From the NCBI GenBank assembly GCA_018821305.1, contig JAHJMN010000104.1, positions 1 to 39,200 of the forward strand: a stretch of DNA of 39,200 nucleotides, given 5' to 3'. The notes under the pieces are model-generated. The model saw only the letters and a list, made by a program, of their open reading frames with translations, ran no database searches and was not told the DNA's origin. This document shows positions 3,841-12,247 of this stretch, piece by piece. Made by a program: the position numbers and the translations under genes. This stretch comes from Myxococcota bacterium (lineage in GTDB: Bacteria > Myxococcota_A > Polyangia > HGW-17). Each line of letters opens with the position of its first letter. The stretch's first letter is position 1.

Positions 3841-5001
3841 TTATTTTTGATGTTCGAAGGTACCGCGGAAAGATGCGGCGAAGATGACACCACTTCCGTA
3901 CAGCGTCAGTTCAGCCCTGGAAAACCTCATGTTTTCATCTGTATAGCCACCATAGATGATAAAACGACCTCCAGCGAAAGCACCGGAAACAAGGTCGTAA
4001 TGCAGTTTCCCGTCATCGGAAGGGACAATTTCCCCGGTGTAAAGATTTTCATCAATGACGACGGCTGCCCAGGAATCGGTAATGCTGACAATTTGAATAT
4101 TTCCGTCGGTAACAGGGACATAGTCTTCTTCGGGAAGTTCATCGTCCACAGAAGTAACGACCGTTTCACCGTTCCATTCAGAATCAATGGAGAAAACATA
4201 TTCACCATCGTCAAAGTCGTCAATAGCATTGCAAAGACAATCAATTTCAAGGTTGAAGCTGCCTTGTGCCCCATTATATCCATCAACTGCGATAAACCGA
4301 TAATAGTGAACATCGAATGCAACACTTTCAATATCCTGAATATCAAGTGGAGTTGAAGAAAATCCCTGAGCGTCAAAAGGGTCGCAGGAGTTAAGGACAA
4401 AAAGATCAAGGTCTTCGGTAATATCCGTGAGTCTTGCCATAGCTCGACAGTCCATTGATTGCATTTCCCCGGCATTCACATTCATTGTGAAAATCTGCTC
4501 CGGGCCAGTTTCTGCTCTAGCGGAAACGCTGTAACCATTCCATTCATTTAAAGCACCAACTGTTGTGCCCGAATACCTCGTACCGCAAGGAGTTTTAACA
4601 GTATCAAAGCACTTTGCGATTTCCTCGGGAACAATGCACTTTCCCGTTTCTTCATTCAGTTCAAACCCGAGACCACAACTGCACGTAAGATCCTCATTGC
4701 ACGAACCAAGAATCGTTGACAATTCAGGGTTTTCGTTACATGTCTGATTCTGCCCGTAGACGCAATTCCCGGAAGTAATCGCGCGGCATTTCCCTGTTGC
4801 AGGGTTGTTTTCAAAGCCTCCATTGCAACTGCAAGTTTGATCTTCATTGCAACTTCCAGAAAGGGAAGATTGAGCTGCATCGTCATTGCAAGTTTGATCC
4901 TGCCCGTAAATGCAGTACTCAGGGTCATCAGTACAATCAGAACACGTGCAACCATAAACAGTTGTTAAAACAAGAAGTAGAGTAAGCAGCAACGATTTCA
5001 T
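3841..5001 (-). CDS. Lipoprotein with two EGF-like repeats and a PPC-like domain
   Basis: A 386-residue lipoprotein with lipobox VYGC (Cys18). Residues about 25-125 contain two near-identical Cys-rich repeats of about 45 residues, each starting CxYGQxQTCN and ending in CSCxxGFExNxxTGKC, like EGF-type modules. Residues about 140-255 resemble the bacterial pre-peptidase C-terminal (PPC) fold, with the sequence DLDLFVLNSC and a closing aromatic strand. Residues 260-386 are a separate beta-rich domain of unknown kind. The product should sit on the cell envelope. A GGAGG Shine-Dalgarno precedes the ATG, and a promoter partly supplied by a repeat lies upstream. It is the first gene of a two-gene operon with the propeller lipoprotein. 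Confidence 0.8.
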   Translation of the reverse strand: MKSLLLTLLLVLTTVYGCTCSDCTDDPEYCIYGQDQTCNDDAAQSSLSGSCNEDQTCSCNGGFENNPATGKCRAITSGNCVYGQNQTCNENPELSTILGSCNEDLTCSCGLGFELNEETGKCIVPEEIAKCFDTVKTPCGTRYSGTTVGALNEWNGYSVSARAETGPEQIFTMNVNAGEMQSMDCRAMARLTDITEDLDLFVLNSCDPFDAQGFSSTPLDIQDIESVAFDVHYYRFIAVDGYNGAQGSFNLEIDCLCNAIDDFDDGEYVFSIDSEWNGETVVTSVDDELPEEDYVPVTDGNIQIVSITDSWAAVVIDENLYTGEIVPSDDGKLHYDLVSGAFAGGRFIIYGGYTDENMRFSRAELTLYGSGVIFAASFRGTFEHQK

Positions 5002-7356: not shown

Positions 7357-9643
7357 TCAGGGGTAGGCGATGAATTCTGGATCTGTTGCTTGAACGGGTA
7401 AAGCTGAGGACATGGTCACCGGATCTATGCCTAACTGACCTGAATAATTATCACCCCAACTTTGGATTTTACCATTTGTATCCACAAATCCTGTATACCA
7501 GTTTTTAACAGCAATTGATGCAGACACAAGGATTCCTGATGACGCAATTGACTGCTGAGGAGTATGATAATATGTGGTGCCACCAGCAATTCCAAGTTCC
7601 TGAGATCCATTTGAGCCCCAGCACCATAATCTGTTCAAAGTATCTGATGCACAGGTATATGACCTTCCCTGTGAATTTCTTTTACTTACGGCAATGGAAT
7701 TGAAAACCGCACCGGTAGGCATTAAGACCGGAGTGGGGGTATTTGCAGGATCTCTGTTACCTGCACCAATTGCACCATAGCTGTTATCTCCCCAGCAAAA
7801 CCCGTTGCCTGCAGTATCAAGAACACATGCATGCGCATCAGTAATGCTTATAAAATTGATTGCCGCTGCCGCTGACGGAACTGTAATACTTTGCGGAGTC
7901 CATGCATAATCAACTCCAACGAGTCCATAATAGTTAGAACCCCAGCACCAGAGACCACCATCTGTATCAGTGGCGCAGGAAATCTGACCTCCCGCAGCAA
8001 TGAAATTGAATGATTTGTTCTGAGGCATTTCAACAGGTACTGGTACCCAGCTGTTTGCAGATGAATTGTTTCCCAGTTGACCGCTACCATTTGAGCCCCA
8101 GCACCATGCGTTTCCGATGGTGTCAATGGCGCAGGTGTGATCAAAACCTGCGGCAACCGCAGTGAAGGAAATTCCCGGTGGCATACTTGTTGTAACGGGG
8201 CTGTTGCTTGGTGAATTGGATAAATTTCCAAATTGTCCATATGAATTGTCACCCCAGCACCAATTGTCACCGTTTGTATCCACAACACATGTATGGTTTA
8301 TTCCTGAAGACAATTTATCACTGAAGGATATTCCATCGGGCTTTTCCACTGGTGTCGGTGTATATGTAGATGTGCTGTCCCCGGTTCCCAGTTGCCCATT
8401 AGTGTTAGAACCCCAGCACCAGATGTCGTTGCGTGAATCCTGAGCGCACGCAAAATTCAGGCCGACCACAAGTCTCGTAAATACTTTTCCACTGCATCCA
8501 AGCATTGCACATCCAGTATTGCAGGCAATGGACCCGGAATCATAACCCAGGTCTGAGCAGGTTGTACCGCCGAAATCTGTCCCATCGCACTGCTCTCCGA
8601 AATCCGCATCGAGTTTGTTGTCTCCGCAACTTCGACACATGGATAAATCATAATCACAACTGGAGCAAAGCAGTGTCACGTTTTCATCATAATAGTTGGG
8701 GTTAAGGCTGTGACAGTTTGTTTTTCCGTTCAGATTTGCCCCTTCGCAATTTTCGCCGTAAATAGTCTGAATTGTTCCGTCACCACAATATCCAAAAGTA
8801 GCACAGTTTGCTTCGGCATAGGTACAGTCATTGTTGCAACTCAGAGTGCCACCATAATAACCAAGAGAAATGCAATCATTGCCCCCATAATCATTGCCAT
8901 CACATTCTTCTGCCCCGGTCGTCGAGCCATCTCCACATTCGCTGCAGTTGGAGTAGTCGAAAGTGCAGTCACTGTTACAAAGCAGCGTACCGGCATCGAA
9001 ATTTAACTGAGTGGCGCAGGTCTGGTTATTAAGATTAGTCCCATCGCAGTCTTCCTCTTCGGTCTGAACTGTGGAATCTCCGCATCTTCCAGACAGCTCA
9101 CAGTTCTGGGTATTGAAAGTGCAATCATTGGAACAGCTTAGTGTTCCACCATAATACCCCAGTGTTTCGCAGGTCTGGCCGTTCAGATTGCCATTGTCGC
9201 AGGTTTCTCCATACTGGGCCTGAATTACGCTGTCTCCACATTTATTTTCTCCACCGCACTGACTGAAATCATAGCGACAATCATCACCACAGGTGACATT
9301 GCCGGTACCGTATACTCCGAATTCAGCACAGGTAAGTTCGGTGAAACTGGAAGCTTCACAATCTTCATCGTTTTCCTGTACTATGTCATCCCCGCATCTC
9401 TCTGAGCACTGTGAGTAATCGAAAGTGCAGTCATTGGCGCAAGTCAGCGTTCCTTTGTAATATCCAGCTTCCATGCAGGTATTTCCCCCGAGGTTTTCTC
9501 CATCGCATTCTTCAGAGGGGTCGATAACAGTGTCGCCACACACATCAACTTCAGACGAATCATCACACCCGGCAAAAACCAGTGAGAGGGAAATTGTTCC
9601 GATTAATAAAATAGTATTAAATAAGTGTTTTTTTTTCAGCCAT
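7357..9643 (-). CDS. Large lipoprotein: seven Myxococcus Cys-rich repeats plus seven RCC1-like repeats (possible A9 frameshift at start)
   Basis: The continuous reading frame from 9543 gives 728 residues with no signal peptide. Extending it upstream in the same frame (to 9639, about 760 residues) reveals a lipoprotein signal ending LVFAGC. The only ATG with a proper Shine-Dalgarno (GGAGG, five bases before the ATG at 9643-9641) is out of frame by one base, because the next codons contain a run of nine A (T at 9628-9636). Eight A would join ATG-GCT-GAA to the signal peptide. The mature protein has seven CGD...CDG...C repeats of about 48 residues (Myxococcus disulfide repeat type). Seven repeats with xWCWGxNxxGQLG then follow (RCC1 type), enough for one seven-bladed propeller. 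It should be a surface binding protein; the ligand is unknown. Confidence 0.85.
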
Positions 9644-9779
9644 AATAACCTCCAAACCGTCTTTATGAAACGATTTGGCGCATAGGCTATATATTATAAA
9701 CAATTTGTCAATCAGTATTATATCAAGGGGGAATTTTTAAGGAAACTAAAGGTCGGGAGATATCTCAACACCTTGTGGT

Positions 9780-11265: not shown

Positions 11266-11506
11266 ACCGCTTGCGGAATTAAAGGATCGAAACGGGAAAA
11301 GTGAATGTTTTCATCCTGCCATTTGTAATTATGCTTTGATGTTGAATGTTTATGACCTGAACCGGGATCCTGTTTGCCTGACTACCTGTGTCCCTGTTTA
11401 AAATTTCAGGGAAACAGGAAATCAGTAGCAGGAACAGGAAAACAGGGGACTTATTCCTGAAGCATTTCTTTAAAACGAGTCACAATCGTATTACTCCGCA
11501 AGCGGT
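11266..11506. repeat. Family A palindromic element, copy A2 (complete)
   Basis: A 241-bp element bounded by a perfect 11-bp terminal inverted repeat, ACCGCTTGCGG (11266-11276) and CCGCAAGCGGT (11496-11506). Subterminal sequences AAAGGATCGAAA (left) and ATCGTATTACT (right) recur in other copies. The centre has CCTG words facing CAGG words around the core CCCTGTTTAAAATTTCAGGG. The left half is nearly identical to copy A1 at 2332-2606. It has no coding capacity. Confidence 0.9.
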
Positions 11507-11693
11507 ATAAAAAGTGAATATTTACCTCATTTTTTTGTAATTTTACATTGATATTAGATGTTTATGATCTGACCCTGCCCCTGTTTACCTGACTGCCTGA
11601 GTCCCTGTTAAAATATTTCAGGTAACCAGGTAATCAGTAGCAGGAACAGGATAATCAGGTAAGCAATTTTGCGAAGCGCAATGCAAGAGGACA
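11507..11693. repeat. Family A partial copy A3, directly adjoining A2
   Basis: Starts AAAAAGTGAATATTTACCTC, matching the AAAAGTGAATGTTTTCATCC stretch of copies A1 and A2. It continues through the CCTG/CAGG stem (CCTGTTTACCTGACTGCCTG) to GCAATTTTGCGAAGCGCAATGC, a small hairpin also seen in A1 at about 2505-2531. It lacks terminal repeats of its own and looks like a tandem second element sharing an end with A2. Confidence 0.7.
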
Positions 11694-12089: not shown

Positions 12090-12140
12090 ATGCTTTCTCC
12101 AGTTTGCGCAATTCAGTGGAATGCACAGAAAAAATTAGCT

Positions 12141-12217
12141 GCTCCTGCTACTGATTGCCTGTAACATGATATATTTACAGGAAAGCAGGAAGTCAGGAAA
12201 GCAGGTTCAGGATCAGG
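12141..12217. repeat. Family A inner stem fragment, copy A4
   Basis: Only the CCTG/CAGG portion is present: GCTCCTGCTACTGATTGCCT, a short palindrome CCTGTAA/TTACAGG, then AAAGCAGGAAGTCAGGAAAG and CAGGTTCAGGATCAGG. No terminal inverted repeats are recognisable. It sits just after the stop of the nucleotide-sugar dehydrogenase gene (minus strand). Confidence 0.65.
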
Positions 12218-12247
12218 TCATAACCATCAATTTATTCCAAGAGGACC

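Follow-up and report, generated by a model that had tools for sequence, protein, structure and literature searches.

A lipoprotein gene with a nine-base A tract at its 5′ end

The DNA analysed here (the window) is a 39,200-nt stretch of contig JAHJMN010000104.1 from a Myxococcota bacterium, and the gene of interest is a minus-strand frame (7,357–9,639) for a Cys-rich/RCC1 lipoprotein, 760 aa long if read from a CTG codon, with a run of nine A (A9) at its 5′ end. The RCC1-like domain (~8,487–7,723), preceded by a long Cys-rich stretch of CGD...EECDG repeats, exceeds the Pfam thresholds for both PF25390 (E 2e-60, 205.5 bits; cut-off 150) and PF00415 (E 1.4e-46, 157 bits; cut-off 21.7), identifying the product as an RCC1-repeat protein. 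A signal peptide and lipobox are present, and export with surface exposure is predicted from the sequence. Paralogs of one or both parts (Cys-rich, RCC1) are numerous in the source assembly (5.2 Mb, 216 contigs). Within the genus and family the nearest homologs share ~42–47% identity, and those with readable N-termini begin at ordinary in-frame ATG codons.

On the minus strand the 5′ end reads GGAGG TTATT ATG GCT GAA AAA AAA ACA CTT ATT TAA. The Shine-Dalgarno sequence GGAGG (9,649–9,653) lies 5 nt from an ATG (9,643–9,641), which continues as GCT-GAA into A9 (9,628–9,636; T9 on the plus strand), the next base being C. As the first-pass annotation had claimed, this well-served ATG is offset by one base from the frame of the lipoprotein signal (LVFAGC): its own frame (9,617–9,643) ends at TAA after eight codons (MAEKKTLI), and it would join the lipoprotein frame if one base were lost (or two gained). 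For a start at the ATG, the homopolymer in the 5′ coding region therefore fixes the reading frame. The lipoprotein frame is open and undamaged from 9,693 to 7,357 (778 codons) and has no ATG, GTG or TTG in the stretch from the upstream stop to the lipobox. Immediately 5′ of its lysine codons, the sole near-cognate start is the CTG (9,637–9,639), which lies 9 nt from GGAGG. Translation from this codon gives CTG-KKKHLFNTILLIGTISLSLVFAG-Cys, with a signal peptide extending to the lipobox Cys (9,565–9,639) and a lipoprotein signal that reads LKKKHLFNTILLIGTISLSLVFAG-Cys. The coordinates first assigned to ATG and CTG were right; the reported size of the long frame, 728 codons, has to be revised, as it counts from a GTG at 9,543, past the lipobox and hence an implausible protein start. 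A gene caller restricted to standard starts would begin at this GTG inside the mature protein and miss the signal peptide.

Lipoprotein signals without a standard start

A scan of ~1.6 of the 5.2 Mb of the same assembly identified 152 lipoprotein-like signals, 146 of which have a standard start in range (138 ATG, 6 GTG, 2 TTG). Five of the remaining six looked like false hits or long N-termini on inspection, leaving the window gene as the only convincing lipoprotein signal in the scan without a standard start; no other convincing lipoprotein among the 152 signals needs CTG. A search with the T-run pattern returned one match, by chance.

A/T run length and reading frame

A/T runs of at least nine bases are no rarity, 60 occurring in 1.2 Mb of this genome (~1 per 20 kb). 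The fraction of A/T runs lying within genes was 0.78, 0.75, 0.71, 0.56, 0.21 and 0.33 at lengths 5, 6, 7, 8, 9 and ≥10, respectively, the expectation being the coding share of the DNA, 84%; nine-base runs (10/48 in coding DNA) are thus strongly depleted. All 434 interior coding runs of 7–8 bases are in frame, with no gene broken, whereas among runs of ≥9 bases 14 are in frame and three break a gene: the window gene and two further lipoprotein genes, in L036 and L045. Ten apparent frame changes at 7–8-base runs were discarded, their translations resembling those of gene ends or starts or of noncoding DNA, as was an A9 in L125, where one gene ends and another starts in the ordinary way. The A9 of L144 was left out of the count because relatives show the same frame change (see below). 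The excess of breaks at ≥9 gives P ~4e-5 (0.005 against length 8 only), both values being rough since two of the three breaks came from scanning 5′ ends and the sample was partly picked around A9 runs. In this genome the critical length of an A/T run is nine: depletion from genes starts there, breaks are seen only at or above it, and the tract of the window gene is long enough to be unstable. Nine and more bases is also the threshold for slippage in many bacteria (PMC1088944). The pattern fits DNA or RNA polymerase slippage at ≥9 bases and not a sequencing platform with general homopolymer errors.

In the L036 region (7,428; G000:C61, minus strand), T10 lies inside the signal peptide of a 457-codon lipoprotein frame, and an ATG with a Shine-Dalgarno sequence (MKVHKNLLHFFF...) is offset by one base relative to ...FFFSFLLLTIGC on the lipobox side. 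This signal was found separately, being absent from the 152-signal scan owing to the scan's lipobox rule, and the protein had no homolog at E 1e-10 in seven family genomes. In the L045 region (6,342; G000:C55, minus strand), a lipoprotein N-terminus occupies one frame and a subtilase domain (PF00082) another; the two meet at A10, a candidate break.

A further frame change occurs in a gene encoding a PilZ domain (L144, 2,974–5,966, plus strand; contig C72) at A9 (4,004–4,012). The homolog in G001 carries A10 at the homologous site with the same shift, and those in G003 and G005 have a shift of the same sign at T9 and T10, in a membrane segment (L221–L223 for these three genomes). The frame change thus recurs in four related genomes of two genera, at two different sites, always with sign -1. 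In G002 (L227) the protein is one continuous 950-codon frame, and the second part apparently starts at an ATG of its own in the genus to which G004, G006 and G007 belong. Since four genomes share one sign, productive transcriptional slippage or -1 ribosomal frameshifting is a better candidate here than error. The direction is opposite to that required by the window gene, and for this reason -1 ribosomal frameshifting on A-AAA-AAA was rejected for the latter.

These data bear on the possibility, raised in the first-pass annotation, that the tract length in the window is an assembly (or sequencing) error. A9 is known from a single assembly, which leaves room for such an error, but a platform prone to homopolymer errors in general would also break shorter runs, and none of the 434 interior runs of 7–8 bases does so; 14 runs of ≥9 bases keep the frame, and four separate assemblies share the sign of the PilZ frame change at their 9–10-base runs. 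We therefore regard an error as improbable.

Start codon and state of the tract

Both candidate starts were scored with a context model trained on 140 lipoproteins that each have only one candidate ATG, the start codon itself being left out of the score. Upstream bases, including the ribosome site, favour the ATG (+2.5 nats, against -1.9 for the CTG; training median 2.7), and downstream bases the CTG (+3.3, against -4.0; median 2.5). So do the residues of the n-region, at +6.9 for KKKHLF (CTG) and -2.2 for AEKKHL (ATG), with a training median of 5.4.

Our preferred interpretation, held tentatively and at rather less than an even chance, is that the DNA truly carries nine A here and that this hypermutable tract, which lies at the start of an intact gene for a surface lipoprotein, has been caught at a low or off length. 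At A9 the ATG would yield only the eight-residue peptide, leaving the gene low or off, and any lipoprotein would derive from the in-frame CTG or from transcripts short of one A. Slipped-strand replication errors would alter the tract and so switch the ATG between the lipoprotein frame and the other frames; with one A fewer, expression from the ATG would be strong. We infer that the ATG was the original start, that the population contains tracts of different lengths and that the lipoprotein frame is expressed. The interpretation is favoured because a canonical Shine-Dalgarno sequence and ATG at normal spacing precede the tract in a genome where 146/152 signals have a standard start, because the in-gene share of runs falls from 0.56 to 0.21 between eight and nine bases, with breaks confined to ≥9, and because two more lipoprotein genes are broken at T10 and A10 and precedents exist in other bacteria (below). 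Of the phase switch or slippage originally proposed for this surface protein, the slippage-prone tract is supported by the depletion at nine and the breaks at T10 and A10; switching itself is presumed.

Several observations weigh against this interpretation. A start at the ATG gives the n-region MAEKKHL, an atypical one (just 5/140 training lipoproteins carry an acidic residue within positions 2–6), and MKKKHLF read from the CTG is a typical lipoprotein n-region for this genome. Paralogs and A9 runs guided part of the choice of the surveyed sample. Neither an ortholog nor a second allele turned up in the related genomes, the genus, the syntenic block of G001 (where the genes right of the locus, from 12,248, are kept) or the genome and viral contigs.

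The n-region scores make constitutive initiation at the CTG a serious rival, almost as likely as a hypermutable tract with an ATG start. A9 would then be three in-frame lysine codons, which the CTG exactly abuts, and the ATG an accidental out-of-frame competitor; the gene would be intact, as its undamaged long frame allows, and perhaps weakly expressed. Set against the fitting n-region and downstream bases are the absence of any other sampled lipoprotein needing CTG, a spacing of 9 to GGAGG that is usable and seen in this genome but at the edge of the distribution (5/100), and competition for the same site by the better-spaced ATG. CTG is also a poor start codon in bacteria. The first-pass annotation had named this CTG as the start that would overturn its proposal; n-region composition lends it that weight, and the ribosome site speaks for the ATG. 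The context scores and the lack of another CTG-dependent lipoprotein roughly cancel in our estimate, leaving the hypermutable tract slightly ahead. The two explanations are partly compatible, since at A9 the CTG could yield weak expression.

Transcriptional slippage on A9 as the normal route, with part of the transcripts bringing the ATG into the lipoprotein frame, seems to us as improbable as an assembly error. A9 is slippage-prone in many bacteria (PMC1088944), poly-A runs in tssM (A11 in Citrobacter) give 15–25% frameshifting (PMC4256274), and in this family a PilZ gene changes frame at 9–10-base runs in four genomes. The PilZ shift is opposite in sign, however, and in-frame transcripts of the window gene would be a minority; conservation of the tract and its frame relation, as expected of programmed slippage in at least two homologs, was not found. 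Still less probable is a young pseudogene, in which one member of a large redundant paralog set has recently lost its function by mutation: the number of paralogs may make a single loss tolerable, but the remaining ~760-codon frame is undamaged and slippage in a homopolymer can in principle be undone.

An extension of the hypermutable tract, which we consider rather unlikely, is a dial with three positions, in which ATG and CTG share the Shine-Dalgarno sequence and the A tract and expression is strong, weak or absent according to tract length, several lipoproteins of the lineage being set by coding A/T runs of nine or ten. If the tract does switch, poly-A tracts would vary the surface of an uncultured bacterium rich in paralogs of this Cys-rich RCC1 lipoprotein, as happens in some host-associated bacteria. 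The threshold of nine A/T and the conserved PilZ frame change at such runs make slippage in this group testable.

Other features near the gene

An 11-bp hairpin (9,652–9,678, minus strand), the 3′ arm of which covers the first two bases of the Shine-Dalgarno sequence, may act as a terminator or in the control of translation; the fold z-score of the 100-nt region is only -1.4. A CCTG/CAGG-rich interspersed palindromic repeat is present near the gene in two or three copies (11,369–11,442, 11,580–11,654 and 12,139–12,221), and its core, CAGTAGCAGGAACAGG, occurs in 40/231 loci, some of them overlapping. Rfam gave sub-threshold matches only, those to microRNAs sitting on this repeat.

Comparison with known systems

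The variable adherence-associated surface adhesin gene vaa of Mycoplasma hominis is switched by a 5′ poly-A tract, on with 8 A and off with 7 or 9 A (PMC524362). The anatomy is similar, a 5′ poly-A tract in a surface-protein gene, but switching of vaa has been measured, whereas the window gene is represented by one allele only; in the window the tract also lies before the core of the signal peptide, and an in-frame CTG is present. In inlA of Listeria monocytogenes, which likewise has a 5′ poly-A tract, the out-of-frame form ends after residue 8 (PMC2831843), as in the window gene; the inlA tract is shorter (A6/A7), the protein is a Gram-positive internalin, and alleles are available from many strains. 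Runs of comparable length (A9–A11) shift the frame in mRNA in dnaX of Thermus (A9) and tssM1 of Citrobacter rodentium (A11) (PMC1088944, PMC4256274). Slippage in those genes was demonstrated experimentally, while the window gene is known from its sequence, and its ATG would need a tract shorter by one base (or longer by two) to enter the lipoprotein frame.
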